Assembly (NCBI GenBank): GCA_902801165.1 | Contig: CADCHI010000037.1 | Coordinates: 1-32,038 of the forward strand | Direction of reading: 5' to 3' | From: an uncultured Eubacteriales bacterium | Lineage (GTDB): Bacteria; Bacillota; Clostridia; Christensenellales; Aristaeellaceae | DNA: 32,038 nucleotides | Part shown: piece after piece, positions 8,339 through 27,122 of the stretch | Numbering within the stretch: position 1 is the first letter of the stretch | Layout: each line of letters begins with the position of its first letter | Notes under the pieces: model-generated | The model's input: only the letters and a program-made list of their open reading frames with translations | Told to the model about the DNA's origin: nothing | The model's database searches: none | Position numbers and translations under genes: made by a program

Positions 8339-8416
8339 AAATACCCCTTCCCGGCCCGCGAGTGGCCTCGATGTTTTTTTCGTGAAATGCCGCGCCTGCG
8401 CACGGCCGCTGATACA

Positions 8417-8699: not shown

Positions 8700-8763
8700 C
8701 CTTGAGAACCTGTTTCGAGAAAAGCCCATCCTTCGGTTTCCCCCTTCCCCATCCCTCTTCAAT

Positions 8764-8773
8764 ATGGTATAAT
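8764..8773 (+). promoter_or_regulatory. extended -10 promoter of the GH43 operon
   Basis: TATGGTATAAT contains a perfect -10 (TATAAT, 8768-8773) preceded by TG one base upstream, the extended -10 signature. That can compensate for the poor -35 region (ttcccc at 8745-8750). Transcription would start near 8780, about 63 bases before the GH43 ATG. Confidence 0.65.
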
Positions 8774-8842
8774 GAAGCATAGTCAAATCCCTGATTCTCG
8801 GCGGCACAAGTCGCTCAACCATCAACTCACAGGAGGTACGCC

Positions 8843-9727: not shown

Positions 9728-9730
9728 CCG

Positions 9731-11167: not shown

Positions 11168-11196
11168 GCGCGAAGCACTGTATTATAGCAAACAAA

Positions 11197-11264
11197 AGAT
11201 CCTTCACTTCGTTCAGGATGACGGGACTGAGATTCGCAATCATCCCGAGCGAAGCGAAGAATCT
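11197..11264. repeat. inverted-repeat element between convergent genes
   Basis: Two 24-base arms (11197-11220 and 11241-11264) pair with 20 of 24 matches around a 20-base loop. The core resembles the cttcgcttcgctcgggatg-type dispersed repeat common in Clostridia. All four mismatches are transitions, consistent with RNA-level G-U pairing being kept. Lying between the convergent glycosidase and DUF362 genes, it may serve as a bidirectional transcription end. Confidence 0.75.
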
Positions 11265-11282
11265 TATGTTGTCCTGCCTTCC

Positions 11283-12368
11283 CTACTTCACGCCCTCGTA
11301 GGCGATGTCCTCCAGCGCGTCGGCGATGGCCCCGGCGGAGGGCGGGCAGCCCATGACGCACCGGGTCGAGCCCTTGCAGCACTTGCCGATGCCCAGGCCA
11401 TCGAAGGCCTTGTTCTGCCAGCCCTGGCCGATGCAGATGTCCAGATTCTTGCCGTAACCGCTGGCGTACAGTGCGCGCACCAGGTTGGCGAAGCAGGCGG
11501 AACAGGCCCGGTCCTGCCGCACCTTCCGGGTCAGGCTGGCCACGATGCCGGAGGGCTTGGGATAGCCCGCGGCGTCGGTGGGGGCGTTCAGGTTCACGAT
11601 GTCCGCCATTTCAAAGCGGGTGCTGCCGCCGCCGTACTCCTCCGCCAGCTCGATATAGGGCACCTCGTCCAGCCGCAGGCCCATCAGGCTCGCGCCATAG
11701 GCGTCGATCTGCACGGCGTCGGTGCCGAGGTACATCCGGTTGGTCTGCACCGGCGTGCCGCCCTCCTCGAAGTTCAGGTCGCCGCAGATGCTGTCCACGA
11801 TGATCAGCCCGGGCTTCAGCGCCGCGCCCAGCGCCGCGATGGGGTTCGTCAGCCCCATGGCGTGGAAGTGACGCTTCTCCCGGTCCGGCAGGCAGCCCTT
11901 CAGGTTCTTCAAGGCGCAGGTCATCACCGTCTGGCAGTGGCCCTTCAGCACCGGCAGGTCCACCAGCAGCCCGGCGTCCAGCGCCCGGCAGCACACGTCG
12001 ATCTTGCCCACGGCGGTGTTCACCGGCCGGGTCTTGTCCTTCTTCAGGTCGTAGAAGGGCACGTCGTATTTGGCGCACACCTTGTCGTAGCCAGCGCGGC
12101 GCATGGCCCGCATGGTCTCGTCGCCGACCCAGCTGCCCTCGATCACGCTGATGTCCTTCACGCCGTGATCCCGGAAGTATTCGATGGCCCCGGACAGCAC
12201 CCCTGGGTGGGTGGTCGCGCCGCTCTCCGGTGTGCCCGCGATCACCAGGTTCGGCTTCAGCGCCACGGAGCCGCCGGCGGGCACCCGCTCGATGGCGTTG
12301 GCCGCATCCAGCAGCGAAAGGGTCAATGCGTGGGCGTCGCCGCCATAGATTTGATAGATCTTGCTCAT
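11283..12368 (-). CDS. DUF362 domain protein with cysteine-rich C-terminus
   Basis: A 361-residue protein matching the DUF362 family by its N-terminal ALKPNLV, the central IEGSW and DLPVLKGHCQTVMTCALKN stretch (about residues 139-156), and the VDSICGDLNFEEGG region near 197-210. The C-terminal quarter is rich in cysteine: CSAC near 289-292 and then KCC, RC and GCPPS near 330-345. This suggests metal or iron-sulfur binding, though the spacing is not a standard 4Fe-4S ferredoxin pattern. The family's biochemical role is not established. GGAG lies 8 bases before the ATG. It is the last of the twelve-gene unit, 72 bp after gnd and separated from it by a strong hairpin, so its expression may be reduced or independent. 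No signal peptide is seen. Confidence 0.85.
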   Translation of the reverse strand: MSKIYQIYGGDAHALTLSLLDAANAIERVPAGGSVALKPNLVIAGTPESGATTHPGVLSGAIEYFRDHGVKDISVIEGSWVGDETMRAMRRAGYDKVCAKYDVPFYDLKKDKTRPVNTAVGKIDVCCRALDAGLLVDLPVLKGHCQTVMTCALKNLKGCLPDREKRHFHAMGLTNPIAALGAALKPGLIIVDSICGDLNFEEGGTPVQTNRMYLGTDAVQIDAYGASLMGLRLDEVPYIELAEEYGGGSTRFEMADIVNLNAPTDAAGYPKPSGIVASLTRKVRQDRACSACFANLVRALYASGYGKNLDICIGQGWQNKAFDGLGIGKCCKGSTRCVMGCPPSAGAIADALEDIAYEGVK

Positions 12369-12398
12369 AGAGTTTGCTCCAATAACAGTTTGCGCGAA

Positions 12399-12442
12399 GC
12401 GGAGCCGCCCCCTTTTCCGGGCGGCTCCGCCGTTTCTTTTTT
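12399..12442. terminator. strong hairpin between gnd and the DUF362 gene
   Basis: Perfect 12-bp arms gcggagccgccc (12399-12410) and complement (12419-12430) enclose an 8-base loop. Read on the plus strand they are followed by cgtttctttttt, a textbook intrinsic terminator, but no plus-strand gene is upstream. On the minus strand, where gnd ends at 12441, the hairpin follows the stop codon directly and is trailed by ttcgcgc, a poor U-tract. It may therefore act as partial terminator or 3'-end stabiliser for the gnd message and block antisense transcription. Confidence 0.7.
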
Positions 12443-13886
12443 AGGTGTTGTAGGTCCCGGCGGTGGTGTTGCCGCCCTCGCCGGTCCAGTTGGTGTGGAA
12501 GAACTGTCCCCTCGGCTGGTCCACGCGCTCATAGGTGTGGGCGCCGAAGTAGTCGCGCTGGGCCTGCAAGAGGTTGGCGGGCAGCCGCTGACAGCGGTAG
12601 CCGTCGTAGTAGCTCAGCGCCGAGGCGAACGCCGGCACCGGCACGCCGTTCAGCATTGCCGCCGCGCAGGCGCGCCGCCAGCCGCCCTGGGCCCTCTCCA
12701 GCGCGTCGCGGAAGAAGTCTTCCAGCATCAGGTTGGTCAGCTCGGGATCGCGCTCGAAGGCCTCCTTGATGCGCCCCAGGAACTGGGAGCGGATGATGCA
12801 GCCGCCGCGCCACATCAGCGCGATGCCGCCGTAGTTCAGGTTCCAGCCGTAGGTCTTGGCCGCCTGGCGCATCAACTGGTAGCCCTGGGCGTAGGACACG
12901 ATCTTGCTGGCGTACAGCGCCTGGCGGATGTCCTCCACGAAGGCCGCACTGTCGCCCTCGAACTTCGGGGCGACGCCCTTCAAGACCTTCGAGGCCGCCA
13001 CGCGTTCCTCCTTGATGGCGGACAGGCAGCGGGAGAACACGCTCTCGCCGATCAGCGTCAGCGGGATGCCCTCGTCCAGCGCGGTGATGGCGGTCCACTT
13101 GCCGGTGCCCTTCTGGCCGGCGGTGTCCAGGATCTTCTCCACGATGGGGCTGCCGTCCGCGTCCTTGTAGGCGAGGATGTCCCGGGTGATCTCAATGAGG
13201 TAGCTGTCCAGGTCGCCCTTGTTCCACTCGGTGAATACGTCGTGCATCTCGTCGTCGGACATGCCCAGGTAGTCCTTCATCAGCTGGTAGGCCTCGCAGA
13301 TCAGCTGCATGTCGCCGTACTCGATGCCGTTGTGCACCATCTTGACGAAGTGGCCCGCGCCGCCTTCGCCCACCCAGTCGCAGCAGGGCGCGCCGTCCAC
13401 ATGGGCGCAGATGGACTGGAAGATGGGGGCCACGTGGGGCCACGCCGCGGGAGATCCGCCCGGCATCATGCTGGGTCCCTTCAGCGCGCCCTCCTCGCCG
13501 CCGGACACGCCCGTGCCCACGTACAGCAGGCCCTTGCCCTCCACATACGCGCAGCGGCGGATGGTGTCCGGGTAGTGGGCGTTGCCGCCGTCGATGATGA
13601 TGTCGCCCGGCTCCAGGTGCGGCAGGATCTGCTCGATCAGCTCGTCCACCGGCTTGCCGGCCTTCACCATCATCATCACCTTGCGGGGCTTCTCCAAGCT
13701 CGCGCACAGCTCCTCGATGGACTTGCAGCCGATGATGTTTTTGCCCTTTGCGCGACCCTCCACGAAGCGGGTCACCTTCTCCACCGTGCGGTTGAACACC
13801 GCCACCGTGAAGCCCTTGCTCTCCATGTTCATGACCAAGTTCTCGCCCATGACGGCGAGGCCGATCAGGCCGATATTTGCTTTCAT
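12441..13886 (-). CDS. gnd: 6-phosphogluconate dehydrogenase, decarboxylating
   Basis: Converts 6-phosphogluconate to ribulose 5-phosphate and CO2 with NAD(P)+ reduction. The 481-residue length is that of the long dimeric class. Motifs are the Rossmann start IGLIGLAVMGENL at 5-17, FNRT at 31-34 (Arg33 and Thr34 favour NADP), the substrate loop GVSGGEEGALKGPSMMPGG at 126-144, and GHFVKMVHNGIEYGDMQ at 178-194 with catalytic Lys182, Asn186 and Glu189. The all-helical dimer domain and flexible tail complete it. It starts 4 bases after the kinase stop, with GAAGAGGTG upstream inside the kinase gene, so the two are tightly coupled. That is a strong hint that the kinase product may be 6-phosphogluconate or a close relative. 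It also ties the cassette to the transketolase and transaldolase further upstream. Confidence 0.97.
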   Translation of the reverse strand: MKANIGLIGLAVMGENLVMNMESKGFTVAVFNRTVEKVTRFVEGRAKGKNIIGCKSIEELCASLEKPRKVMMMVKAGKPVDELIEQILPHLEPGDIIIDGGNAHYPDTIRRCAYVEGKGLLYVGTGVSGGEEGALKGPSMMPGGSPAAWPHVAPIFQSICAHVDGAPCCDWVGEGGAGHFVKMVHNGIEYGDMQLICEAYQLMKDYLGMSDDEMHDVFTEWNKGDLDSYLIEITRDILAYKDADGSPIVEKILDTAGQKGTGKWTAITALDEGIPLTLIGESVFSRCLSAIKEERVAASKVLKGVAPKFEGDSAAFVEDIRQALYASKIVSYAQGYQLMRQAAKTYGWNLNYGGIALMWRGGCIIRSQFLGRIKEAFERDPELTNLMLEDFFRDALERAQGGWRRACAAAMLNGVPVPAFASALSYYDGYRCQRLPANLLQAQRDYFGAHTYERVDQPRGQFFHTNWTGEGGNTTAGTYNT

Positions 13887-13890
13887 GCGC

Positions 13891-14949
13891 TCACCTCTTC
13901 ACACGGGCGTTGCCCGCCCAGACGTTCCAGACCTGGTCCTCGTCCACGGGGGTGGCGAAGTCCTCGACCATGGTGGTGGCCATGGCGCCGGTGGCCCAGC
14001 CGAAGTGGAGGCAGTCCTCTGCCTTCCAGCCCTTGAGGATGCCGTACACGAGGCCGGAGACGAAGCCGTCGCCGCCGCCGATGCGGTCCAGCACGAAAAT
14101 GGGCCGGGGCTCGACCACGTTCCACTCGCCGTTCATCAGCAGGATCGCGCCCCAGTTGTGCTGGTTGGCGTTGACGACCTCGCGCAGGGTGGTGGCGAAG
14201 GTGGTGGCGTTGGGGTACTGGGCCTTGACGCGCATGATCATTTCCTTGAAGGATTCGATCTTCGCCGCCAGGCCCTTGCCGCCGGCCTCGGGGCCCTGGA
14301 TGCCCAGCGCCAGCTGGAAGTCCTCCTCGTTGCCGATCAGGATGTCCGCCCGGGAGGCGATGGAGGAGAAGATCTCCCGCAGCTCCGCCTCGCGGCCCTT
14401 CCAGAAAGACGCGCGGTAGTTCATGTCGAAGCTGATGCGTGCGCCGTTGGCCTTGGCGTAGTCCGCCAGCTTCAGGCAGGTCCTGCCCGTCTCGGGGGAC
14501 ATGGCCGCGAACAGGCCGGACATGTGCACGATCTCCACGCCCTCGTCCTCGAAGATGCGCTTCAGGTCGAAGTCCTCCGCCGAGATGCCGCGGCCGACCT
14601 CACCCGCGCGGTCGTTGTACACCCGCGGGCCGCGCATGCCGTAGCCGGTGTCCGCGATGTTGAACTGGTGCCGGCAGCCCCAGGGGCCCTCCTGCACGAT
14701 GTCCGGACCCTCGAATTCGATGTTCCTGCGCCGCAGGTCGCCCTTGATGAACGCCGCGATGGGGCTGTCCTTCACGAACCGGGTCAGCACCTTGGTGCGC
14801 ATGCCCAGGGAGGCCGCCACGTTCAGCACGTTGCTCTCCGCGCTGGTGGAGGTCATCGTGTAGAGGTTGCCGATGCCCGCCGGCTGATGGTCCGCCGGAG
14901 TGATGCGCACGCCCATGGACGTGGCTGTGAGCAGCTGATACTTTGCCAT
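13891..14949 (-). CDS. PfkB-family sugar (acid) kinase, 2-keto-3-deoxygluconate kinase-like
   Basis: An ATP-dependent ribokinase/PfkB-fold kinase of 352 residues. It has FDMNYRASFW at 174-183, the NEED metal/phosphate motif at 207-210, and the anion hole RIGGGDGFVSG at 289-299 with catalytic base Asp294. The TTLREVVNANQHNWGA region near 253-268 resembles Firmicutes KDG kinases, for which this subgroup is usually named. No KDPG aldolase is encoded in the window, however, and the gene is followed 4 bases later by gnd. A sugar-acid kinase making 6-phosphogluconate or a similar phosphosugar acid is therefore a reasonable alternative. AAGGAGGG lies 6 bases before the ATG. Upstream is a 231-bp gap filled with hairpins. 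The protein is cytoplasmic. Confidence 0.88.
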   Translation of the reverse strand: MAKYQLLTATSMGVRITPADHQPAGIGNLYTMTSTSAESNVLNVAASLGMRTKVLTRFVKDSPIAAFIKGDLRRRNIEFEGPDIVQEGPWGCRHQFNIADTGYGMRGPRVYNDRAGEVGRGISAEDFDLKRIFEDEGVEIVHMSGLFAAMSPETGRTCLKLADYAKANGARISFDMNYRASFWKGREAELREIFSSIASRADILIGNEEDFQLALGIQGPEAGGKGLAAKIESFKEMIMRVKAQYPNATTFATTLREVVNANQHNWGAILLMNGEWNVVEPRPIFVLDRIGGGDGFVSGLVYGILKGWKAEDCLHFGWATGAMATTMVEDFATPVDEDQVWNVWAGNARVKR

Positions 14950-14962
14950 AGTTGCCCTCCTT

Positions 14963-15180
14963 GGGGCCCCCCAGGGGGACGCCGTCCCCCTGGGCCCCCT
15001 GTTTAAGGGACATTGTCCCTTGAAAATCCCTTATTGGCGCTGCTTCACAGCGCCAGGAAACAATAAAACCTCATCCGGCGCTACGCGCCACCTTCCCCTC
15101 GCGCGCACTTGTGCGCGTAATTGAGGGTTCTTAGGGGATTCAATCCCCTAAGCGGGGGTCAAGGGGGCAGAGCCCCCTGG
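14963..15180. repeat. composite palindromic repeat between kinase and SDR genes
   Basis: The 231-bp gap between the kinase start and the upstream SDR stop is a series of hairpins. These are gggggac-gcc-gtccccc within 14963-15000, aagggac-att-gtccctt (15005-15021), tggcgctg-cttca-cagcgcca (15035-15055), ttaggggattcaatcccctaa (15131-15151) and gggggc-aga-gccccc (15163-15177). The left 60 bases and the complement of the right 60 bases share the same order of motifs, so the whole is one imperfect inverted repeat, a MITE-like or REP-like unit inserted inside the operon. It may act as RNA processing or attenuation site. Confidence 0.75.
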
Positions 15181-15930
15181 TTACAGGCAGGCCTGCCAGC
15201 CGCCGTCCACGTAGATGGTCTGGCCGGAGATGTAATTCGAGGCCGGGGAGGCCAGCATCACGGCCAGGCCCACCAGGTCCTTCGGATCGCCCCAGCGCCG
15301 CAGTGGCACCTCGCTCTTGACCCAGGCGTCGAACTCGGGGTCTTCGGAGAGGGGCTTGGTCAGGTCGGTGAGGAAATAGCCCGGGCCGATGGCGTTGACG
15401 TTGATGCCGAACTCGCCCCACTCGGTGGCCATGGACTTGGTCAGGGTGACGATGCCGCCCTTGGCCGCGCAGTAATTGCCGATGTTCGGCCGCACCATCA
15501 TGGCGTTGATGGAGGCGATGTTGATGATCTTGCCGTACTTCCGGGCGATCATGCCCCGGGCCACGGCGCGGCCCACGATGAACGCGCCGGACAGGTTCAC
15601 GTCGATGACCTTGCGCCAGTTCTCCACCGGCATGTCGATCAGCAGGTTGCGCTTGTGGATGCCCGCGTTGTTCACCAGGATGTCGATGGGTCCGACCTCG
15701 GCTTCGATCTTCGCAACGGCCTCAGTCACCTGGGCCTCGTTGGAAATGTCAAAGGCGTAGCCCGGTACGCCCAACTCCGCCGCCGCGGCCTGGAGTGTGG
15801 TCGGGTTCACGTCGCTCAGCACGACCTTCGCGCCGGCCTCCTTCATGCCCCGGGCGATGACGTTGCCCAGGCCCTGGGCGCTGCCGGTGACGAGCGCCAC
15901 CCTGCCTTCGAGGGAAAAGATGTCAGTCAT
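15181..15930 (-). CDS. SDR oxidoreductase, gluconate 5-dehydrogenase/KduD-like
   Basis: A classical short-chain dehydrogenase of 249 residues. It has TGSAQGLG at 15-22 (nucleotide loop), Asp40 at the end of beta-2 (favours NAD(H)), NNAG at 87-90, and the catalytic set Ser140, Tyr153 and Lys157 in YCAAK. The opening (FSLEGRVALVTG) and the C-terminal YISGQTIYVDGGW fit the gluconate 5-dehydrogenase and 2-keto-3-deoxygluconate dehydrogenase neighbourhood of the family. Such an enzyme would interconvert a keto-aldonate and an aldonate, for example 5-ketogluconate and gluconate. SDR substrate calls by sequence are weak, so this is inference supported by the nearby kinase and gnd. GGAAGGAAG lies about 9 bases upstream of the start. 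A hairpin separates it from the upstream garR-like gene. Confidence 0.88.
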   Translation of the reverse strand: MTDIFSLEGRVALVTGSAQGLGNVIARGMKEAGAKVVLSDVNPTTLQAAAAELGVPGYAFDISNEAQVTEAVAKIEAEVGPIDILVNNAGIHKRNLLIDMPVENWRKVIDVNLSGAFIVGRAVARGMIARKYGKIINIASINAMMVRPNIGNYCAAKGGIVTLTKSMATEWGEFGINVNAIGPGYFLTDLTKPLSEDPEFDAWVKSEVPLRRWGDPKDLVGLAVMLASPASNYISGQTIYVDGGWQACL

Positions 15931-15951
15931 TTGTGGTACTTCCTTCCGAAA

Positions 15952-15977
15952 AAGGGGCCAGGATGTCCTGGCCCCTT
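15952..15977 (-). terminator. intra-operon hairpin/attenuator after the GarR-like gene
   Basis: Perfect 12-bp arms aaggggccagga (15952-15963) and complement (15966-15977) have a 2-base loop. On the minus strand the hairpin is followed directly by TTTTTC, a short U-tract, and then by the ribosome binding site of the SDR gene. It should act as a partial terminator that lowers expression of the five downstream genes. Confidence 0.7.
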
Positions 15978-15991
15978 ATGCGTATTTTGAA

Positions 15992-16879
15992 TTAATGATG
16001 CAGGGTCTCGCCGGTCAGCTTCTGATAGTACTTGAGCAGGGCGCTGTGGTCGCAGCTGCCGTCGCCGTCGTGATGCAGGACCTTCATCATCTCGAGAACC
16101 ATCTGGGTCAGCGGGATGGGCGCGTCCACGGTCTTGGCGGCGTCCACGACGTTGCTCAGGTCCTTGATGTGCAGGTCGATGCGGAAGCCGGGCTTGAAGT
16201 TCTGGTCCATCATCATCGGAGCCTTGGCGTTCATGACGGTGCTGCCGGCCAGGCCGCCCTTGATGGCATTGAAGATCTTCTCGGGCTCCACGCCGCACAT
16301 CTGGCCCATCTGCATGGCCTCGGCCAGCGCCGCGATGTTCACGGCCACGATGGTCTGATTGCACAGCTTGGTCACGTTGCCCGCGCCGACATCGCCGCAG
16401 AGCACCACGGAGGCGCCCATGACGTCCAGGATCGGCTTATACTGATCGAACAGGTCCTGCCTGCCGCCCACCATGAACGCCAGGGTGCCGTCGATGGCCT
16501 TCGGCTCGCCGCCGGAGACGGGGCAGTCCAGCATGTCGATGCCCAGCTTCGCCAGCTCGGCCGCGATCTCGCGGGAGGCGATGGGGTTGATGGAGGAGCA
16601 ATCCAGCACGACCGCGCCCTTCTTCAGGGTCTTGGCGGCGCCATCCTCACCGAACAGGGCTTCCTTCACGTTGGGGGAGTTGGGCACCATGGTGATCAGC
16701 ACATCCACCTGGCTGCCGACATCCATGTTGCTCGCGGCGGCCTTCGCGCCCGCGGCAACGACCTCTTCAACGTTCTTGGGGGCAAACTTGTCCGCCACGA
16801 TCACTTCGTAGCCGGCCTTCACCAGGTTCTTCGCCATCGGCTTGCCCATGATGCCCAGTCCGATAAATCCGATTTTCAT
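15992..16879 (-). CDS. garR: 2-hydroxy-3-oxopropionate (tartronate semialdehyde) reductase, GarR-like
   Basis: A beta-hydroxyacid dehydrogenase of 295 residues that reduces tartronate semialdehyde to D-glycerate in the named family. It has GFIGLGIMGKPMAKNL at 4-19, the substrate loop DCPVSGGEPKA at 118-128, GNVTKLCNQ at 167-175 with catalytic Lys171, and IKDLSN near 238-243. The stretch 208-235 (GGLAGSTV, then AKAP, then FKPGFRIDLHIKDL) is, from memory, very close to E. coli GarR, which makes this narrower call more likely than 3-hydroxyisobutyrate dehydrogenase. No GarL aldolase, glucarate/galactarate dehydratase or glycerate kinase is present here, so the source of its substrate is unclear. 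AAGGA lies 11 bases upstream of the start. A composite hairpin repeat separates it from the transketolase C gene. Confidence 0.88.
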   Translation of the reverse strand: MKIGFIGLGIMGKPMAKNLVKAGYEVIVADKFAPKNVEEVVAAGAKAAASNMDVGSQVDVLITMVPNSPNVKEALFGEDGAAKTLKKGAVVLDCSSINPIASREIAAELAKLGIDMLDCPVSGGEPKAIDGTLAFMVGGRQDLFDQYKPILDVMGASVVLCGDVGAGNVTKLCNQTIVAVNIAALAEAMQMGQMCGVEPEKIFNAIKGGLAGSTVMNAKAPMMMDQNFKPGFRIDLHIKDLSNVVDAAKTVDAPIPLTQMVLEMMKVLHHDGDGSCDHSALLKYYQKLTGETLHH

Positions 16880-16910
16880 TTTGCATTACATCCTTTCAGT
16901 TTGAATTGTG

Positions 16911-17012
16911 GAGACGGACTCCCTCCGGCCCTTCGGGCCGCCTCCCTCAAGGAGGAAGGCTCCCTCCCCGAGGGAGCTGTCAGCAACGCTGACCGAGAGA
17001 GTCCGGCGTCTC
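16911..17012. repeat. composite hairpin repeat between transketolase C and GarR-like genes
   Basis: Outer arms gagacggact (16911-16920) and gtccggcgtctc (17001-17012) are roughly complementary. Inside are ggccc-ttc-gggcc, ctccctc-ccc-gagggag and gtcag-caac-gctgac. This is the pattern of the abundant ctccctc/gtcagc-type palindromic repeat seen between genes in Oscillospirales-like genomes. It carries no gene. It sits within the operon and would be transcribed. Confidence 0.75.
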
Positions 17013-17035
17013 ATAAATGGCAGTCCGTTTTCGCC

Positions 17036-17977
17036 TTACGCCAGCGCCTTTTTGACGGTGGCGACGATATCGGCGGGGGTCAGGTGGTACTCGACCAGCA
17101 GCTCGTCGTACTTCTGGGCAGAGGTGCCGAAGCAGTCCATGATGCCCATGCGCAGGGTGCGCACGCGGCTGTCGGCGTCGCCCTCGGCCAGCGCCTCGAG
17201 CACCGCGTCGCCCATGCCGCCGATGATCGAAGCCTCTTCCACGGTGACGGCGGCCTTCATGCCCTTGGCAGCGGCGCGCACGCCCTCGGCGTCAAAGGGC
17301 TTGATGGTGGCGATGTTGACGACCTTGGCGGAGATGCCCTCGGCCTCCAGCAGCTTGGCGGCCTCCAGAGCCTGGTACACCATGAAGCCGGTGGCGAAGA
17401 TCACGACGTCCTTGCCGTCCTTCATCTCGCGGACCTTGCCGAACTCGAAGACATCGTCCTCGCCAGTCACGACGGGCACGTCGTTGCGGTTCACGCGGAT
17501 GTAGCAGGGGCCGTCGATCTCGGCCATGGCCTTGACGATCTTCTTGGTCTCATAGTAGTCGGCGGGAGAGAACACCTTCATGTTGGGCAGCACGCGCATG
17601 ATGGCGATGTCGTCCACGGACTGGTGGGTCTTGCCGTCGCCGAAGTCGGACAGGCCGGCGGAGGAGCCGCAGATCTTCACGTTCAGCCGCGGGATGGCCA
17701 CGGAGGAACGGATCTGGTCGTAGGGGCGGCCGGAGGCGAACACCGCGAAGGTGCTGGCAAAGGCGGTGTGGCCGGTCAGGGCCAGGCCCGCCGCCGCGGA
17801 GATCATGTTGGCCTCGGCGATGCCCATCTGGAAATAGCGCTCCGGGAATTCGCCGCCGAACATATTGGACATGGTGGACTTGCCGAGGTCGGCCTCCAGC
17901 GCGACCACCTTTTCATTGGCGCGGCCGAGCTCAAGCAGGGCTTCGCCATAAGCCTTGCGCATATTCATCTTGCTCAT
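17036..17977 (-). CDS. transketolase, C-terminal subunit (split transketolase)
   Basis: The pyrimidine-binding and C-terminal half of a two-subunit, thiamine-diphosphate-dependent transketolase, 313 residues. The catalytic glutamate that activates the cofactor is Glu55 in MGIAEANM. FAVFASGRPYDQIR at 78-91 and DGKTHQSVDD near 119-128 are further transketolase landmarks, and residues 180-310 form the C-terminal transketolase domain. GGAGGAGG lies inside the end of the N-subunit gene, 3 bases of spacer separate the two genes, and they must make one enzyme. Split transketolases occur in many Firmicutes and archaea. Here the pair is embedded in a catabolic cassette, which argues for a dedicated substrate (a ketose or keto-acid phosphate) rather than housekeeping duty. 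Apulose-4-phosphate transketolase is a known two-subunit member of the same family. Confidence 0.93.
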   Translation of the reverse strand: MSKMNMRKAYGEALLELGRANEKVVALEADLGKSTMSNMFGGEFPERYFQMGIAEANMISAAAGLALTGHTAFASTFAVFASGRPYDQIRSSVAIPRLNVKICGSSAGLSDFGDGKTHQSVDDIAIMRVLPNMKVFSPADYYETKKIVKAMAEIDGPCYIRVNRNDVPVVTGEDDVFEFGKVREMKDGKDVVIFATGFMVYQALEAAKLLEAEGISAKVVNIATIKPFDAEGVRAAAKGMKAAVTVEEASIIGGMGDAVLEALAEGDADSRVRTLRMGIMDCFGTSAQKYDELLVEYHLTPADIVATVKKALA

Positions 17978-17980
17978 GGT

Positions 17981-18820
17981 TTACGCCTCCTCCTTCATCT
18001 TTTCGACCATCGCCTGGGCGATCTTGTACTCTTCCTCGTTCATCGCGGCGTTGTGATAGGCGGCCTTGCCCTCGGCGAAGGGGAAGCCCTTGCCCTTGAC
18101 GGTGTTGGCGATGATGGCGGTGGGCTTGCCCTTGCAGGCCTTGGCGGCATCCAGCGCCTCGAGGATCTGGGCCATGTCGTGGCCGTCGATCTCGATGGTG
18201 TTCCAGCCGAACGCCTCCCATTTTTCCTTCAGCATGCCGTTGGGCAGCACGTTGTCCACGGTGTCGGTGGCCTGCACGCCGTTGCGGTCGATGATGGCCA
18301 CGAGGTTGTCCACCTTGTGGGCCGCGGCGGCCATGGCGGCCTCCCAGATCTGGCCCTCGTCCAGCTCGCCGTCGCCGACGATGCAGAACACGCGGGATTC
18401 ACTCTTGTCCACCCGCAGGCCGAAGGCCATGCCCAGCGACACGCTCAGGCCCTGGCCCAGGGAGCCGGTGACGGCCTCGATGCCGGGGGTGTGGTCCATG
18501 TCGGGGTGGCCCTGCAGGGTGCCGTCCAGGGTCTTGACCTTGTGCAGGTCCTCATGGCTGACATAGCCCAGCTCCACAAAGGCGGCGTACTGCGCCAGCA
18601 CGGCGTGGCCCTTGGAGAACACGCAGCGGTCGCGCAGGGGGTTCTTGGGATCGTCAAACACCTTCATGTGCTTGAAGTACAGCGCGGCCACCACGTCCAT
18701 GATGGAGGAGCTGCCGCCCAGATGGCCCACCTTTCCCGGGGGGATCATTTCGATCAGGTTGCCGCGCAGCGTCGCGGCGATCTTCCTGAGATCGTGAAGC
18801 TCTTTTTCAGAATAGCTCAT
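17981..18820 (-). CDS. transketolase, N-terminal subunit (split transketolase)
   Basis: The thiamine-diphosphate pyrophosphate-binding half, 279 residues. It has GHLGG at 32-36, SKGH at 69-72, GSLGQGLS at 119-126, and the cofactor/Mg motif GDGELDEGQIWEA (149-161) running on to Asn180 in IDRN. With the downstream C subunit it makes a complete transketolase. The start at 18820 is preferred over the ATG 9 bases upstream because AAGGAG lies directly against that upstream ATG but 9 bases from this one. The upstream frame to 18937 would read through an intergenic inverted repeat, so I exclude it. Gene order (N then C, 3-base gap) matches split transketolases elsewhere. Confidence 0.95.
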   Translation of the reverse strand: MSYSEKELHDLRKIAATLRGNLIEMIPPGKVGHLGGSSSIMDVVAALYFKHMKVFDDPKNPLRDRCVFSKGHAVLAQYAAFVELGYVSHEDLHKVKTLDGTLQGHPDMDHTPGIEAVTGSLGQGLSVSLGMAFGLRVDKSESRVFCIVGDGELDEGQIWEAAMAAAAHKVDNLVAIIDRNGVQATDTVDNVLPNGMLKEKWEAFGWNTIEIDGHDMAQILEALDAAKACKGKPTAIIANTVKGKGFPFAEGKAAYHNAAMNEEEYKIAQAMVEKMKEEA

Positions 18821-18839
18821 CGGAAACATCTCCTTGTAT

Positions 18840-18915
18840 GAATTGAGAATTGAGAATTGGGAATGGAGAATTATGGATAGCCGGCGATGCCTTTTCAATT
18901 CCTCATTCTCAATTG
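18840..18915. repeat. aattgagaat-type inverted repeat between SDR and transketolase N genes
   Basis: The left arm carries tandem aattgagaat units (18840-18874) and the right arm (18892-18915) is the near complement, with about 20 paired bases. A lone half of the same motif (aattctcaatttccaatta, about 23212-23230) lies at the end of the transaldolase gene. It looks like a small dispersed palindromic repeat, transcribed within the operon. Confidence 0.65.
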
Positions 18916-18938
18916 TTGATTTGTCGCCTTGCGTCAAA

Positions 18939-19691
18939 TCAATAGCAGGTCACGCCGCCATCGATCGGCAGGGCAATGCCGTTGATGAAGCTGGCTTCCT
19001 CGCTGCACAGGTACAACACGGCGTTGGCCACGTCCTGAGCGGTGGCCAGGCGGCCCAGCGGCACCTCACCCACGCGCTCCGCGTGGAACTGGGGGTCCTT
19101 CAGCCTCTCCCGCACCAGGGGGGTGTCCACGGTGCTGGGATGGATGGAGTTGCAGCGGATGCCGTCCTTGGCGTAGCGGGAGGCGATGGCCTTGGTCAGC
19201 AGCGTCACCGCGCCCTTGGTGGCGGTGTAGGCCTCGGGGGTGAACTTGTGGCCCACCAGGCCGCACACGCTGGAGGTGTTGATGATCGCGCCGCCGCCCT
19301 GCTTGCGCATCACGGGGATGGCGTACTTGGTGCCCAGGAAGGTGGAGCCGGTGTTGACCTTCATCATGGTCATCCACTCGTCGATCACCATCTCCTCGAC
19401 GGGCTTGCGGATGTTGATGCCGGCGTTGTTCACCAGCACGTCCAAGCGTCCGCCCTTCTCCACGGCGAAATCCACCGCGGCCTTCCAATCGGCCTCGCTG
19501 GTGACGTCGGCCTTGATAAACCAGGCCTGGCCGCCCTTGGCGCAGATGTCGTCCGCGGTGGCCTGGCCCTTTTCGGCGTCCAGGTCCACGATGACCACCT
19601 TCGCGCCGTTGTCGCACAGCAGGCGCGCCATTTCGCTGCCCAGGCCGCCGCCCGCGCCAGTGATCATGATGACCTTATCCTTGACATTCAT
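18939..19691 (-). CDS. SDR family NAD-dependent oxidoreductase
   Basis: A second classical short-chain dehydrogenase, 250 residues, clearly different from the one at 15181. It has TGAGGGLG at 11-18, Asp36 in VDLD (favours NAD), NNAG at 88-91, catalytic Ser near 140-141 in INTSSVCG, and Tyr155 and Lys159 in YTATK. The end INGIALPIDGG is the usual SDR closing strand. The substrate cannot be assigned. Its place between the importer and the transketolase suggests it performs the first oxidation or reduction of the imported compound, on a hydroxyl or keto group of a sugar acid or polyol. GAAGG lies 8 bases upstream of the ATG. Inverted repeats flank it on both sides. Confidence 0.88.
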   Translation of the reverse strand: MNVKDKVIMITGAGGGLGSEMARLLCDNGAKVVIVDLDAEKGQATADDICAKGGQAWFIKADVTSEADWKAAVDFAVEKGGRLDVLVNNAGINIRKPVEEMVIDEWMTMMKVNTGSTFLGTKYAIPVMRKQGGGAIINTSSVCGLVGHKFTPEAYTATKGAVTLLTKAIASRYAKDGIRCNSIHPSTVDTPLVRERLKDPQFHAERVGEVPLGRLATAQDVANAVLYLCSEEASFINGIALPIDGGVTCY

Positions 19692-19728
19692 TGGAAAGAC
19701 CTTCTTTCATTTGATATGTTGGGGTTTT

Positions 19729-19854
19729 AGTGTGGAGTTTGGAGTGTTGAGTGTGGAGTTCAGGTGGAAATCCTTACGGATTTCTTTTGAAATAAGGCTA
19801 CGACGTGGCCCGGCATTCTTTAACTCCAAACTCCACTCTCCACACGCCAAACTC
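19729..19854. repeat. tgtggagttt-type inverted repeat between tctA and SDR genes
   Basis: The left arm (19729-19760) carries repeated gtgtggagttt units and the right arm (19821-19854) is its imperfect complement. About 60 bases lie between them. No gene or promoter is evident. It is one of several unrelated palindromic repeats placed at junctions of this operon. Confidence 0.65.
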
Positions 19855-19855
19855 A

Positions 19856-21358
19856 TTATCCCTTCGTGCCGCCCAGATCCTCCTTGACGCCCTTGATGGT
19901 CTTGATCGCGCCGGAGACCAGGGAGTACACCACGACCACCAGCAGGATGTCGCCCACCACGCGGGTCAGCACATTGCCGCCCATGGTCAGGGACTGGCGG
20001 AAGTTGGTATCCGCCGTCTTGCCCAGGATCAGGCCCAGGGTCAGCGGCGCCAGCGGGAAGTTCATCTTCCTCAGGAAGAAGCCGATCAGGCCGAACACCA
20101 GCATCAGCTTGACGTCAAACAGATTGGAGCGGGAGGCGTAGGCGCCCACGACGGTCAGCGACACGATGATGGGCATCAGCACCTTGCGGTTGATCTGCAA
20201 AATCTTGACCATGGGCTTGGTCAGCACCAGGGCCAGGGCCACCATGACGATGGCGGCGACCGCCAGGGTCAGGCCGACGGTGTACATGAAGGCGGGGGCC
20301 TTCACGGTCAGCATGGGGCCGGGCTGCACGCCGTGCAGGTTCAGGGCCGCCAGGAACATGGCCGCCTGGGTGGAGCCGGGGATGGCCAGGGTCAGCATGG
20401 GGATCATGGCGCCGGGGATGCAGGCGTTGTTGGCGGTCTCAGAGCAGGCCAGGCCGGCAAAGCTGCCCTTGCCGAAGTTGGCCTTGTCCTTGTCGCGGGA
20501 TTTGCCCGTGGAGTAGGACAGCCACGCGGCGATGTCCTCGCCCGCGCCGGGGATCGCGCCGATGCCGCAGCCGATCAGCGAGGAACGGAGCAGCGGGCGC
20601 AGCAGGCTCTTCAATTCTTCCTTGTCCGGCAGTATCGTGCCCATGTCGGAGTTGACCTGGAATGGCGTTCGATCCTGCAGAACCGACAGCACCTCGGCGA
20701 TGCCGAAGATACCGATCAGGGCGGGGATCAGCTCGACGCCGCTGCGCAGGGACGGAATCCAAGTGAAGCGGGCGGAGTTGTAGATCGCCTCGACGCCGAT
20801 CATCGCCACGAAGAAGCCGATGAAGCCGGCCAGCCAGCCCTTCAGGGGCGAGCAGTCCACGGACAGGTTGCCGCAGATGGTGATGCCGAACAGCGCCAGC
20901 AGGAACATCTCCCACTTGCCGAACTTCAGCGCGATCTTGGACAGGAAGGGGGTGGCGACCATCATGATCACCACGGACAGCAGGGTGCCCAGGCAGGACG
21001 CGAACACGCCGCCAAACAGCGCCTTGCCGCCCTTGCCGGACTTCGCCAGTGGGTAGCCGTCCAGCGCCGTCGCTGCCGCGTTGGGCGTGCCGGGGATGTT
21101 CAGCATGATGGCGGAGAACAGGCCGCCGGAGACCGCGCCCACGTACACGCCCAGCATGAACGCCACGGCCTGGTCCGAGGGGAGTTTATAGGTCAGGTTG
21201 ATCAAAAGGGCCAATGCCATGGTGCCGGTCAGGCCGGGGATCGCGCCGACCACCAGGCCCAGCAGCACCGCGCCGGCGACGATCAACAGGTTTGACAGTT
21301 CGAATACGCCGCCCGCCGCCTGGCCCACCAGGCTAAGCTGTTTCAGGAATTCACTCAT
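19856..21358 (-). CDS. tctA: tripartite tricarboxylate transporter large permease, TctA family
   Basis: The main membrane subunit of a TTT-type secondary importer that works with TctB and the binding protein TctC. At 500 residues it has full family length, about 12 predicted hydrophobic segments, and the duplicated signatures GAIPGLTGTMALALL near 38-52, IPGTPNAAATALDGYPLAKSG near 88-108, GAIPGAGEDIAAW near 268-280 and NNACIPGAMIPMLTLAIPGS near 310-329. Family members import citrate, other carboxylates and aromatic or sugar acids using the cation gradient. The neighbours here point to a sugar acid. AAGGAGG lies 10 bases before the start, and the gene begins 15 bp after the tctB stop. Gene order C-B-A is the usual one. 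Confidence 0.96.
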   Translation of the reverse strand: MSEFLKQLSLVGQAAGGVFELSNLLIVAGAVLLGLVVGAIPGLTGTMALALLINLTYKLPSDQAVAFMLGVYVGAVSGGLFSAIMLNIPGTPNAAATALDGYPLAKSGKGGKALFGGVFASCLGTLLSVVIMMVATPFLSKIALKFGKWEMFLLALFGITICGNLSVDCSPLKGWLAGFIGFFVAMIGVEAIYNSARFTWIPSLRSGVELIPALIGIFGIAEVLSVLQDRTPFQVNSDMGTILPDKEELKSLLRPLLRSSLIGCGIGAIPGAGEDIAAWLSYSTGKSRDKDKANFGKGSFAGLACSETANNACIPGAMIPMLTLAIPGSTQAAMFLAALNLHGVQPGPMLTVKAPAFMYTVGLTLAVAAIVMVALALVLTKPMVKILQINRKVLMPIIVSLTVVGAYASRSNLFDVKLMLVFGLIGFFLRKMNFPLAPLTLGLILGKTADTNFRQSLTMGGNVLTRVVGDILLVVVVYSLVSGAIKTIKGVKEDLGGTKG

Positions 21359-21373
21359 GTTCCGCGCACCTCC

Positions 21374-21865
21374 TTAAGGCATGGTGATGCCGAAGCCCAG
21401 CTTGAACGCGTAGAACACGATCACGGACATCGCCACCGCGATAATAATGCCCAGCCACCACTGCTTGGTCGCCTTCAGGTACAGGAAGTTGGCGATCAGG
21501 TAGATCGAGGTGGCGATGATGAAGTGCACGCGGCCCAGCAGCACATAGATGTAAACCACCATCATGGCCACCAGGATCACCACGCGGATGGTGGAGTCGC
21601 TGGTGATGAACTGCTTCAGGAACGCCCCGTTGCAGACCTCCTTCAGCTCCTTCGCGCCGCCGAGCTTGAAGCCGATGAAGGCCAGCACCGCGCCCAGCAC
21701 CACCAGCACCCCGCCGATGATCGTCGGGAAGAAGCCGGGGGCGTCCAGGAAGGTGTTGTAGACCTTCATGTTCAGGGAATCAATGATGACATAAATGCCA
21801 AACAGAACCAGCAGTATGCCGCAGAAAAAATCCTTCGCGGCATTCCTGTTCTTTTTCTCCTCCAT
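21374..21865 (-). CDS. tctB: tripartite tricarboxylate transporter small subunit, TctB family
   Basis: The small, poorly conserved membrane subunit of the TTT importer, 163 residues with four or five hydrophobic segments (about 12-28, 46-66, 93-110, 114-130 and 136-155). The motif APGFFPTIIGG at 42-52 is the most recognisable TctB feature. It pairs with TctA in the cytoplasmic membrane; its exact role is unknown. The start at 21865 has AAAGGAG 8 bases upstream. The longer reading to 21898 runs back into non-coding sequence without a better site. A 155-bp gap with a hairpin separates it from tctC. Confidence 0.92.
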   Translation of the reverse strand: MEEKKNRNAAKDFFCGILLVLFGIYVIIDSLNMKVYNTFLDAPGFFPTIIGGVLVVLGAVLAFIGFKLGGAKELKEVCNGAFLKQFITSDSTIRVVILVAMMVVYIYVLLGRVHFIIATSIYLIANFLYLKATKQWWLGIIIAVAMSVIVFYAFKLGFGITMP

Positions 21866-21945
21866 TTGGTTCACTCCTTTTGCGAAATCCGGGACCAACC
21901 CGACAGAGCCCGATTCCTGAATGCGACGATTGGACCCGGAAATGT

Positions 21946-21981
21946 CTGGAGCGTCGCGGCGCGATGCCCGCGACGCCCCAG
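21946..21981 (-). terminator. hairpin after tctC (attenuator or 3'-end stabiliser)
   Basis: Arms ctggagcgtcgcgg (21946-21959) and ccgcgacgccccag (21968-21981) pair over 13 of 14 positions. It lies just past the binding-protein gene, and on the minus strand is followed by acatttcc. Hairpins here commonly let the binding protein be made in excess over the membrane subunits. Confidence 0.65.
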
Positions 21982-22020
21982 GGAATCAAACCCAAACAGC
22001 GTTCAGGATGAGAGTGTCGA

Positions 22021-23067
22021 TTACTTGTAGGCCTCGCAGGTCAGCTTCACGGTGTCCCAATCGTACTCTTCCAGGGTCGGGATGCCGTAGTCAGCGGGGT
22101 TGCCCTCGCCCAGGCCGGCGTTGAACAGGGTCCAGGAGTAGCCGGAGATGGAGTAGGACAGGAACTTGTCGGCTTCCTCACCGGTCAGGCCGATGATGTT
22201 GAAGCCCTTGGAGGCGGCAAATTCCTTCACGGCGTCGGTCTCGATGGCGGCGTTGAAGGCCTCGACCAGCTTGTCGACGATCTCCTGGGGAGTGTCGCGG
22301 GGGATCATGATGGGCCAGGTCTCGTTCAGGTTCGGGATGCCGTCGGTGCCCTCGACCTCAGTGGTGACGGAGGGGGTGGTCACGCCGATGCCGGTGAACT
22401 CGAAGGGATCCGCGCAGGTGACGAAGATCGGCACCAGCATGTCGCCGTTCAGGTAGTCGATGACGGCGGACAGGGAGCCAGCGCCCACCATGACGTCGCC
22501 GGCGATGCAGCCAACGGCGGTGTCGGCGCAGGAGCCGAACAGGCTGTACTCGGGGGAAGCCACGCCCTTGGCGGCGCAGATGGCCTCGAACTGGGTGTGC
22601 GGGCCGTTGCCGTAAGCGCCCACGCCGAACTTGTTGCCGGCAGCCAGGTAGTCAAACAGCTCCTGGGTGTTGGTCACGCCAGCGTCCTTGTTGGCGAACA
22701 CCACGGCCGGGCCGGAGTACGGATGGAAGGAGATCCAATCCTGCCAGCTGGAGGTGGAGTAGGCGTAGATCGGGTAAGAGGAGAATCCGCCGGTACCAGT
22801 GGCGAACATGCTGGTGCCGTCGTGGGGCTGCTCCAGGACGTAGTCGCACGCCACGGCGGAGTTCGCGCCTTCCATGTTGGAGCAGTTGATGGTCTCGCCC
22901 AGGTAGTCAGCCATCGCGGCAACCACAGGACGCACCGCGGTGTCGGTTCCGCCACCGGCGCCGTAGCCGATGTACACGGTGGGAGTGGCCGGGAACACAG
23001 CCGCCATGGCGGAGGTGCAGCCCAGTACCAGCATCAGGCAGAGTACCGTCGCAAGCAGTTTCTTCAT
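22021..23067 (-). CDS. tctC: tripartite tricarboxylate transporter substrate-binding protein, TctC/Bug family
   Basis: The extracellular receptor that delivers the substrate to TctAB. The 348-residue product starts with a signal peptide (MKKLLATVLCLMLVLG) followed by CTSAMA. Either Cys17 is a poor lipobox cysteine, or signal peptidase I cuts near AMA-AV. The mature protein has the Bug-type opening YIGYGAGGGTDTAVRP (about 32-47), NMEGANSAVACDYV near 64-77 and the late IPRDTPQEIVDKLVEAFNAA near 260-279, a recognisable TctC feature. The start at 23067 has AGGAGG 8 bases upstream and begins the signal peptide; the longer frame to 23157 is non-coding leader. Ligand cannot be read, but Bug proteins bind carboxylates, which supports a sugar acid. 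Confidence 0.92.
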   Translation of the reverse strand: MKKLLATVLCLMLVLGCTSAMAAVFPATPTVYIGYGAGGGTDTAVRPVVAAMADYLGETINCSNMEGANSAVACDYVLEQPHDGTSMFATGTGGFSSYPIYAYSTSSWQDWISFHPYSGPAVVFANKDAGVTNTQELFDYLAAGNKFGVGAYGNGPHTQFEAICAAKGVASPEYSLFGSCADTAVGCIAGDVMVGAGSLSAVIDYLNGDMLVPIFVTCADPFEFTGIGVTTPSVTTEVEGTDGIPNLNETWPIMIPRDTPQEIVDKLVEAFNAAIETDAVKEFAASKGFNIIGLTGEEADKFLSYSISGYSWTLFNAGLGEGNPADYGIPTLEEYDWDTVKLTCEAYK

Positions 23068-23227
23068 TGTGGTATCCTCCTTATTTTCAAGCGCCGCAGC
23101 GCTTGTATTCCGTTGATAGGGAATCGGGCGCCTCGTCGGGCCCCCTCGGGCTCTCATGAAGCAGTTCCTTGCGCGGCAGGTTCAGCTCCCCTGCCCCACC
23201 GAACTTCCTTTAATTCTCAATTTCCAA

Positions 23228-24259
23228 TTATAGCTTGATGCCCTTCAGCACGTTCCAGCCCATCTGCACGAACTGGTCCAGCGTGCGGTTGCAGGAGCCG
23301 AAGGTGATGAACTCGTTGATCTTCATGCCGTCGGGGTCATAGCCCTTGATGAACTCGGGCATCTCGCTGAGGCGCTCGATGACAGCGGGGTCCACGGGGT
23401 CATTGATCTTCTCGACGAACTCGGTGTTGTCCTGGAGCTTGGCGGCAATGCCGGGGGCGATGGACATGACCATGTCCGCGCCGGCCAGGTCGCTGATGTG
23501 ATAGCCGCCGCGGCAGCCCGCGGGCATCAGCACGCAGTCGTAGCCCTTCTCCTTGAAGATGCCGTAGGCCCGCTTGATGGCGGCGGTGCCGGCACAGATG
23601 ACGTCGGACTCGGTGGCGCTGACGCGGGTGTCGTTCATGACGTCGCGCAGGTAGTCGTCCAGGCGGCCCACCATCAAAACGGCGATGCCGATGCCGGGCT
23701 TGATGCCCTTGGCGATGGCCTTTTCGCGGCCGCGCTGGTAGGCCTCGGCCATGGCCAGCACCTGGGGCACGGTGAAGCTGACGGTGGCGGCGGTGTTCAG
23801 GCCCTCCGCCGCGCAGGCTTCGATGGCCTCGAGGCCGCCGTGGGTGGCGGGGAACTTGATGACGATGTTTTCAGCCATGGAGGCATAGTGCTTCGCGGTG
23901 GCGATCATGCCCTCGGTGTCGCCGGGGCGGCAGGGATTGGTCTGCGCGCAGACATAGCCGGCGTAGGGCGCGGTGCCGTAGAGCCTGCCCAGCTTGTTTT
24001 TGGCCAGCCAGCCCGTGACCTGGGCGATCCACTCCTCCGCGCGGGCGTCGCCCTGCACGTCGTCCGACACCCCGGGCAGCACGCTGCGCCAGAAATCCGG
24101 CTGGGCCTTCAGCGTCGCGCCGATCAAAAAGGGATTCGTGGTCATGCCGACGGCGCCGTTCGCCATCGCGACGTCCAGCTCCTCAACAATCGCGCTGTCG
24201 TGCCAGTAGACGGAGGGCGTCTTGGACGAGAGCCACTGCAAATACTTGTTTTCAGCCAT
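23228..24259 (-). CDS. tal: transaldolase family protein
   Basis: A 343-residue class I aldolase-fold enzyme and first gene of the cassette. Transaldolase moves a dihydroxyacetone unit between sugar phosphates through a lysine Schiff base. Visible landmarks are Asp21 in HDSAIVEE, MTTNP at 39-43, the Schiff-base Lys135 in AENIVIKFPAT, LNTAATVSF at 154-162, and a C-terminal GRGGYH-like GCRGGYH at 248-254. It is longer than the small TalC/FSA type (about 215) and nearer to TalB-type length. The start at 24259 is preferred since AAAGGG lies 9 bases upstream of it but abuts the alternative ATG. Placed first, ahead of an importer, it is clearly part of the catabolic unit. Fructose-6-phosphate is the usual donor; a modified sugar acid or a sulfosugar phosphate donor would be a novelty. 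Confidence 0.88.
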   Translation of the reverse strand: MAENKYLQWLSSKTPSVYWHDSAIVEELDVAMANGAVGMTTNPFLIGATLKAQPDFWRSVLPGVSDDVQGDARAEEWIAQVTGWLAKNKLGRLYGTAPYAGYVCAQTNPCRPGDTEGMIATAKHYASMAENIVIKFPATHGGLEAIEACAAEGLNTAATVSFTVPQVLAMAEAYQRGREKAIAKGIKPGIGIAVLMVGRLDDYLRDVMNDTRVSATESDVICAGTAAIKRAYGIFKEKGYDCVLMPAGCRGGYHISDLAGADMVMSIAPGIAAKLQDNTEFVEKINDPVDPAVIERLSEMPEFIKGYDPDGMKINEFITFGSCNRTLDQFVQMGWNVLKGIKL

Positions 24260-24316: not shown

Positions 24317-24330
24317 ACCGGTATACCGGT
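24317..24330. promoter_or_regulatory. probable GntR (FCD) operator, perfect 14-bp palindrome
   Basis: accggtataccggt is a perfect palindrome lying at about +11 to +24 of the cassette transcript, where a bound repressor would block elongation or promoter clearance. Its GGTATACC core resembles operators of FCD-type GntR regulators such as UxuR/ExuR, and the gene for one such regulator is divergent, 239 bp away. Confidence 0.8.
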
Positions 24331-24347: not shown

Positions 24348-24376
24348 AGTATATTACATCCGCGTTAGAATGTCAA
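24348..24376 (-). promoter_or_regulatory. sigma-A promoter of the twelve-gene cassette
   Basis: Minus-strand TTGACA (24376-24371, perfect) and TATACT (24353-24348, one mismatch) are separated by exactly 17 bases. Transcription would start near 24341, giving a leader of about 80 bases that contains the palindromic operator. A near-consensus promoter with a downstream operator fits tight repression and strong induction. Confidence 0.88.
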
Positions 24377-25806: not shown

Positions 25807-25826
25807 AATCTGACAGGAGGCAACCC

Positions 25827-27098: not shown

Positions 27099-27122
27099 GT
27101 TGTAGAGGGAACAGGCAACAGG

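Follow-up and report, generated by a model that had tools for sequence, protein, structure and literature searches.

Proposed sugar-acid pathway around a divergent transaldolase in a twelve-gene cassette of an uncultured Eubacteriales bacterium

Transaldolases acting on a six-carbon ketose with an anionic end are described for the sulfo-TAL pathway (BmSF-TAL) and, together with a split transketolase, for the sulfo-TK/TAL pathway of Faecalicatena (PMC11659671). We analyzed a 32,038-nucleotide stretch of DNA from an uncultured Eubacteriales bacterium (the window, which is the entire contig CADCHI010000037.1 of assembly GCA_902801165.1; parent genome 3.55 Mb, 88.6% complete) and found it to carry a twelve-gene cassette with likeness to these systems. 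On balance, we favor the reading that the cassette encodes a sugar-acid pathway around a divergent transaldolase, Tal, which would cut a 5-keto sugar acid, move dihydroxyacetone to glyceraldehyde 3-phosphate, and leave a three-carbon semialdehyde acid. As in the sulfo-TAL route, the products would be fructose 6-phosphate and a three-carbon anionic aldehyde, reducible by a reductase of the 3-hydroxyisobutyrate-dehydrogenase superfamily. The cassette differs in the presumed carboxylate in place of the sulfonate, in a longer transaldolase of a separate family, in a GarR of the tartronate semialdehyde type, in a tripartite tricarboxylate transporter (TTT) importer, and in a branch with PfkB and Gnd. 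The catalytic triad of BmSF-TAL is D6, K89, and E61 (PMC11659671); Tal has Gln115 where the triad needs Glu, scores 28 bits against BmSF-TAL (8bc2-8bc4), and falls outside the sulfofructose transaldolases. The cassette is best read as working like the sulfo-TAL route, with Tal being no member of that enzyme family.

Two further pathways are close in gene content. Catabolism of gluconate, L-idonate, and 5-ketogluconate, which ends in Gnd, shares with the cassette a gluconate 5-dehydrogenase-like short-chain dehydrogenase (SDR) and Gnd, whereas the cassette has PfkB for the GntK-type kinase, an extra branch with Tal and GarR, and the TTT importer. The classical myo-inositol pathway shares iolD, iolE, iolA, and mostly iolB and iolG with operons that hold a sister clade of Tal, the expected substrate again being a 5-keto acid. 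Searches of the open-licence literature, mostly at the level of listings, turned up no paper describing a transaldolase for the breakdown of inositol or ketohexonates.

The cassette and its transaldolase

Family searches confirmed the twelve co-directional minus-strand genes, and the divergent FCD-type GntR gene, that had been named in a first-pass annotation of the window. In order of transcription, the families are TAL_FSA, TctC, TctB, TctA, SDR, Transketolase_N, Transket_pyr with Transketolase_C, GarR, SDR, PfkB, Gnd, and DUF362. The first gene, tal (23228-24259; the open reading frame (ORF) opens at 24286, and the family start MAENKYL is at 24259), encodes the proposed 5-ketohexonate transaldolase. 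Its product belongs to the superfamily by Pfam TAL_FSA (113.8 bits, cut-off 27) but reached at most 73.7 bits against the NCBIfam transaldolase models (cut-off 367), outside the canonical pentose-phosphate transaldolases. For an AlphaFold model of Tal (mean pLDDT 94.5), each of the 50 top-ranked PDB matches listed is a transaldolase or an engineered variant, with TM-scores up to 0.76 by query length. Tal shares with TalA/TalB and fructose-6-phosphate aldolase the fold and, by alignment, the Schiff-base Lys, the Asp, Asn, and Thr, and two Arg. Across 34 family rows, D30, Q115, K144, and T168 are invariant, N51 and R208 are each kept in 33, and R259 is kept in 32. Tal differs from TalA/TalB in its genomic context, in Gln at the position of TalB Glu96, and in the residue at the position of TalB Phe178, which is Met in 27 rows, Gln in 6, Leu in 1, and never Tyr; the numbering at these positions and the residue roles follow TalB.

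In a tree of 39 transaldolase rows (long branches flagged, root for drawing only), the window sequence fell into a clade of 24 rows (clade II, support 82/92), and a second clade held 10 rows (96/97), 7 of them from inositol operons. Residues 29, 50, 203, and 257, which we propose are at or beside active-site positions, cleanly separate the 24 clade-II rows from the 7 inositol rows. The six rows with Gln, not Met, at the Phe178 position are all of clade II. Some loci contain paralogs, tal and tal2 (L046, L048, L049, L052, L053, and L100; side by side in the last three), and both tal2 rows displayed carry this Gln. One tal copy with an in-frame stop (L055, 10001-11029) was left unused. In other families of the phylum, more distant transaldolase-like proteins with Gln at the Glu96 position are encoded immediately next to split transketolase genes (L107 9646-10620, L108 9130-10104, L110 10004-11011, and L112 9823-10803; open frames of 367-411 amino acids, 194-218 bits to profile A1).

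Inositol operons, GarR neighborhoods, and the proposed pathway

Sister-clade tal genes lie among iolD, iolE, and iolA in seven of seven loci of a Lentisphaerota-containing phylum (L056, L057, and L101-L105). Six of these also have iolB and iolG; the exception, with neither matched, is L103, where iolD begins 2.2 kb from the contig end. The order in Lentisphaerota strain zth2 (L056, CP071032) is a sugar-porter major facilitator superfamily gene, iolG, tal, an iolB-like gene, iolD, iolE, iolG, and iolA/MMSDH. IolD, IolE, and both IolG proteins of this strain scored above equivalog cut-offs and MMSDH above its subfamily cut-off, while IolB was below its own cut-off (83.8 versus 205 bits) and is KduI/IolB by Pfam; the neighbors in L057 and in L101-L105, five genomes of the phylum sample, were assigned by homology. 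Proteins like SDR2 of the cassette, 49-54% identical, are encoded in four of the five loci L101-L105. Among 240 genomes sampled from the phylum of G120, IolD was above cut-off in 6 and a family tal (>340 bits) was found in 7, namely all 6 IolD genomes and G683 (hypergeometric 2.8e-11, relatedness ignored). IolC, in contrast to what the classical pathway requires, was above cut-off in none of the 240, the six IolD genomes included, nor was it in G121, the genome of L057; PfkB matches of ~100 bits lie elsewhere in G120 and G121. Within the seven loci, the window PfkB and one class II aldolase query had no match, and a transaldolase is present instead.

When IolC and IolJ are taken out of the known inositol pathway, the intermediate left is 2-deoxy-5-ketogluconate. 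A transaldolase cut of this acid would give fructose 6-phosphate and malonate semialdehyde, the expected substrate of IolA/MMSDH from the same operon, and thus could fill the missing IolC/IolJ step. If the 2-deoxy carbon bore a hydroxyl, an equivalent cut would yield tartronate semialdehyde, on which GarR acts.

The cassette garR (15992-16879) passes two equivalog cut-offs for tartronate semialdehyde reductase (TIGR01505, 386.5 bits, cut-off 340.75; PRK11559, 438 bits, cut-off 397), and the best PDB match of its product is the tartronate semialdehyde reductase 1vpd (360.5 bits). GarR-like does not always mean GarR, since a GarR-like protein with 34% to Salmonella GarR is reported to reduce 4-deoxy-L-erythro-5-hexoseulose uronate (DEH); in the same source, a TTT takes part in alginate oligosaccharide uptake (PMC13390454). 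We surveyed the neighborhoods of 21 clade-II loci, which are not independent (the window and L025 are closely related, and a single metagenome-assembled genome (MAG) is the source of both L047 and L058). GarR is present in eight (the window, L025, L026, L043, L044, L052, L053, and L054), an IolO-like protein in seven (217 bits, cut-off 300, for the one scanned with NCBIfam), UxaE (485 bits) in one, a glycerate-kinase-type protein in two, the TTT importer in six, and a TRAP permease in two. A Gly_kinase-family protein is encoded 0.9 kb from tal in L045, and garR of G009 adjoins a gene for a DUF4147/MOFRL protein, presumably of glycerate kinase type. This family was found in all four cassette genomes searched; Gly_kinase (GarK type) was found in one of the four and not in the window genome. 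Among the clade-II neighbors are likely makers or epimerizers of 5-ketohexonates (SDRs, IolO-like proteins, UxaE) as well as proteins that would consume tartronate semialdehyde (GarR, glycerate kinases). At L029 (4617-8565), the genes after the clade-II tal encode a SauS-like CoA-acylating aldehyde dehydrogenase, which scored below its cut-off, and a carboxyl transferase; a semialdehyde acid may thus be turned into an acyl-CoA there.

Built on the gene content, synteny, family placement, and co-occurrence found here, and with every reaction, substrate, direction, and transketolase role read from sequence and gene neighborhood, the pathway would start with import of a hexonate or ketohexonate by TctABC. 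The importer is complete, each subunit scoring above its cut-off: tctA (19856-21358, large membrane subunit, 442.3 bits), tctB (21374-21898, small membrane subunit, 62 bits), and tctC (22021-23067, substrate-binding protein), whose match is weak at 34.6 bits (cut-off 27). The tctC ORF opens at 23157, with a signal-peptide-like start at 23067; solved binding proteins, compared as a guide to the ligand, matched TctC weakly (at most 43 bits). SDR1 (18939-19691), for which we propose a hexonate/5-ketohexonate redox step, and SDR2 (15181-15930), which is gluconate-5-dehydrogenase-like though below the cut-offs of the gluconate-5-dehydrogenase models, would bring the acid to its 5-keto form; this would be a ketose carrying its carboxylate at the opposite end, for instance 5-ketogluconate or fructuronate. 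Tal would form a Schiff base at K144, take the three carbons of the keto end as dihydroxyacetone, and hand them to glyceraldehyde 3-phosphate, giving fructose 6-phosphate and releasing tartronate semialdehyde. GarR would reduce the latter to D-glycerate, and a MOFRL-type glycerate kinase, encoded within the cassette in G009 and elsewhere in the window genome, would produce phosphoglycerate. The genomic context supports what the first-pass annotation had anticipated of carboxylate import, sugar-acid catabolism, SDR redox steps, and a three-carbon by-product at the GarR step.

A parallel branch may start from the same acid. The pfkB gene (13891-14949) encodes a PfkB kinase closest to 2-keto-3-deoxygluconate (KDG) kinases, on the IolC/KDG side of the family, where kinases phosphorylate keto-aldonates at C6; we propose that it is a (keto)aldonate 6-kinase. 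The gnd gene (12441-13886) encodes a canonical 6-phosphogluconate dehydrogenase (TIGR00873, 779.3 bits, cut-off 426.7). Most simply, some of the acid would be phosphorylated by PfkB and decarboxylated by Gnd, passing through 6-phosphogluconate to ribulose 5-phosphate. The split transketolase, with its N-terminal half encoded by tktN (17981-18820; ORF opens at 18937) and its C-terminal half by tktC (17036-17977), could then convert pentose phosphates to glyceraldehyde 3-phosphate and so provide the transaldolase with its acceptor. At the position of TktA H461, where the full-length transketolase of the genome has His, TktC has Ser in all five cassette rows, which represent four genomes (L025 and L041 are one genome). 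This change is no more than suggestive, since the His is also missing from eight of the nine other split transketolase rows aligned. The sulfofructose transketolase has Asp at this position (PMC11659671).

A broader proposal, which we put forward tentatively, is that these proteins form a new transaldolase family on carboxylate sugars. One clade would replace the IolC-IolJ pair in inositol breakdown, and the other, in Clostridia and Synergistota, would split 5-ketohexonates to yield fructose 6-phosphate and tartronate semialdehyde; the altered split transketolase of the cassette would add a parallel two-carbon cut of the same acid, like its counterpart in the bifurcated sulfosugar pathway. If the favored reading of the cassette is correct, transaldolases would be a general kinase-free opening of anionic six-carbon sugars with carboxylate, sulfonate, or phosphate ends, and the cassette would be to carboxylates what the sulfosugar transaldolase route is to sulfonates. 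The missing IolC/IolJ step in inositol operons of the Lentisphaerota-containing phylum would be filled, and the TTT importer would gain a testable substrate class in an anaerobe-type genome, with tartronate semialdehyde and glycerate as predicted intermediates.

Alternative readings

Several observations weigh against the dihydroxyacetone-transfer pathway. The transaldolase route alone leaves PfkB and Gnd unexplained. The Glu96 position of TalB is occupied by Gln (Q115) in all 34 family rows, and Gln here marks fructose-6-phosphate aldolase and engineered TalB aldolase variants. Seven of the 21 clade-II loci have none of GarR, IolO/UxaE, or a glycerate kinase (L028, L029, L042, L047, L055, L058, and L100); five of these are ~10 kb or shorter, while L028 and L055 are longer. 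The co-occurrence across 240 genomes rests on few lineages, and L030-L032, which the tree places with the inositol clade, show no iol genes. (In L031, 4186-11856, genes for a TRAP importer, an SDR, tal, a zinc alcohol dehydrogenase, and a relative of acylating aldehyde dehydrogenases lie together.) Finally, three of the five cassette-bearing genomes searched encode the dihydroxyacetone kinase Dak1, namely G009, G066, and that to which contig L043 belongs, and among 14 clade-II genomes the kinase was found in 5.

PfkB and Gnd would be explained if the sugar acid went to 6-phosphogluconate and through Gnd to ribulose 5-phosphate, from which ordinary transketolase and transaldolase reactions would regenerate fructose 6-phosphate and glyceraldehyde 3-phosphate, with GarR incidental. 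The canonical Gnd is the sole one found in the 88.6%-complete genome, PfkB is KDG-kinase-like, the split transketolase is within the cassette, and pfkB and gnd accompany tal in the window, G016, L044, and L053, with gnd also in L054. This is the route of the first-pass annotation, whose term private pentose-phosphate module is partly right: no second gnd was found, whereas the genome also holds a full-length transketolase (C25), a second split transketolase (C17), and a second TAL/FSA protein (C38). A single route from Gnd to the pentose phosphates was not supported as the core of the cassette: in G009 and L043, tal, garR, and SDR2 stay together where pfkB and gnd were not seen in the stretches read (20 kb in G009, with DUF362 not seen either, and 10 kb downstream of tal in L043). 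GarR also accompanies tal in L052, a 6.3-kb contig that may end before gnd and pfkB. Tal is distant from curated transaldolases, and a route through Gnd only would leave GarR idle, without a substrate, and the tal relatives in seven of seven inositol loci unexplained; the described inositol pathway is not known to generate any pentose phosphate. We consider this reading unlikely.

We likewise regard as improbable, to about the same degree, that Tal works as a plain class I aldolase in the manner of fructose-6-phosphate aldolase, splitting a 5-ketohexonate into free dihydroxyacetone and tartronate semialdehyde with no phosphorylated acceptor. The invariant Gln speaks for it, as does the presence of TalB E96Q/F178Y variants, named in the titles, among the structural matches of Tal, and so does Dak1 in three of the five cassette-bearing genomes. 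However, the Phe178 position is Met, Gln, or Leu and not Tyr in all 34 rows, and the Gln recurs in five of five more distant relatives, four of which adjoin split transketolases. Dak1 is absent from 16 of the 21 tal genomes, G000 and G016 included, with Dak1 being the only one searched among dihydroxyacetone kinases and reductases; it is missing in all seven inositol-clade genomes and in 9 of 14 clade-II genomes. This pattern favors transfer of dihydroxyacetone over free release, a preference that is strong for the inositol clade and only mild for the window.

A sulfosugar (sulfoquinovose-type) pathway with a transaldolase, a split transketolase, and a GarR-like sulfolactaldehyde reductase would fit a GH31 enzyme encoded nearby (5984-8614) and the joint occurrence of transaldolase and split transketolase genes in the Faecalicatena bifurcated cluster (PMC11659671), but was rejected as highly improbable on the scores of GarR (191 bits against a cut-off of 348 for the sulfolactaldehyde reductase model, with the cut-off for tartronate semialdehyde reductase exceeded) and of Tal (weak against BmSF-TAL alone and, as a profile, 60 bits versus 91 for the best ordinary transaldolase), with no place for Gnd and PfkB and no sulfoquinovose isomerase-like gene among the twelve.

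Distribution, regulatory sequences, and flanking genes

Among 120 related genomes, the window genome included, 13 had a match to tal (E 0.001), 6 of them strong (at least 342 bits), and 107 had none at this threshold. Of the six, G000 and G016 carry all twelve cassette genes, G009 nine, and G066 five on a 7.1-kb contig, while G037 and G091 have no cassette gene besides tal. The expectation that related genomes keep these genes together was borne out in the first four of these, and the cassette is conserved where present, yet rare. In G016, the twelve genes are 92-100% identical at the amino acid level, and the flanking GH43, MGH1-like, and GH140-like genes are kept too. G009 (L026), of the same genus, has its nine genes in order, and the gene for the DUF4147/MOFRL protein separates garR from SDR2. 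Nine genes in the same order, at 63-89% amino acid identity, are also present on a Synergistaceae contig (L043). Since G016 keeps twelve genes and L043 nine in order, the gene set is not a chance assembly. On L043, an opposite-strand gene of the dihydroxyacid/6-phosphogluconate dehydratase type (EDD/IlvD-type) follows SDR2 (10547-12304). Fretibacterium MAGs (L042 and L047) show tal-tctCBA, and L044 (G066) has tal-garR-SDR2-pfkB-gnd with no importer, SDR1, or transketolase between them. The closest named relative of the window is the MAG Clostridia bacterium S12M_St_22 (L041). Two Synergistota rows nest among Clostridia rows in the transaldolase tree, which suggests transfer between phyla. In a wider search of the phylum of the window, 24 of 398 genomes matched tal at E 1e-30, and all except the window genome scored at most 218.4 bits, values that point to other transaldolase-like clades.

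The DUF362 gene (11283-12368) is a doubtful member; it was seen in the window and G016 only among the cassette loci compared, and no role was found for its product.

A promoter, TTGACA-17-TATACT (24348-24376, minus strand; 11/12 consensus match), and a perfect 14-bp palindrome (24317-24330), 17 bases downstream of the -10 hexamer and a probable operator, precede tal as the first-pass annotation had described. The same hexamers and spacing are found upstream of tal in L025, L026, and the Fretibacterium MAG L042, while in G016 and G009, both of the same genus, tal is preceded by the exact palindrome, and in L044 by two GGTATACC cores. Allowing up to two mismatches, the palindrome has one match in the window versus 0.07 expected, and it may resemble UxuR/ExuR-type operators. 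The claim of one promoter for all twelve genes is not established, because several intergenic gaps are 60-230 bp and a weaker promoter-like match lies inside the cassette (18898-18870). A promoter scan gave five sites versus 2.3 expected, and a terminator scan seven versus 9.8; a 12-pair stem is located between gnd and the DUF362 gene. The divergent FCD-type GntR regulator (24569-25258, plus strand; ORF opens at 24512) likely starts at the ATG at 24569, behind TTGAAG-17-TATAAT.

On one side, the cassette is flanked by GH36, GH31, GH43, and MGH1-like genes (3679-11167), and on the other by an apiosidase-family (GH140-like) gene and genes for an ABC sugar importer (25752-30880).

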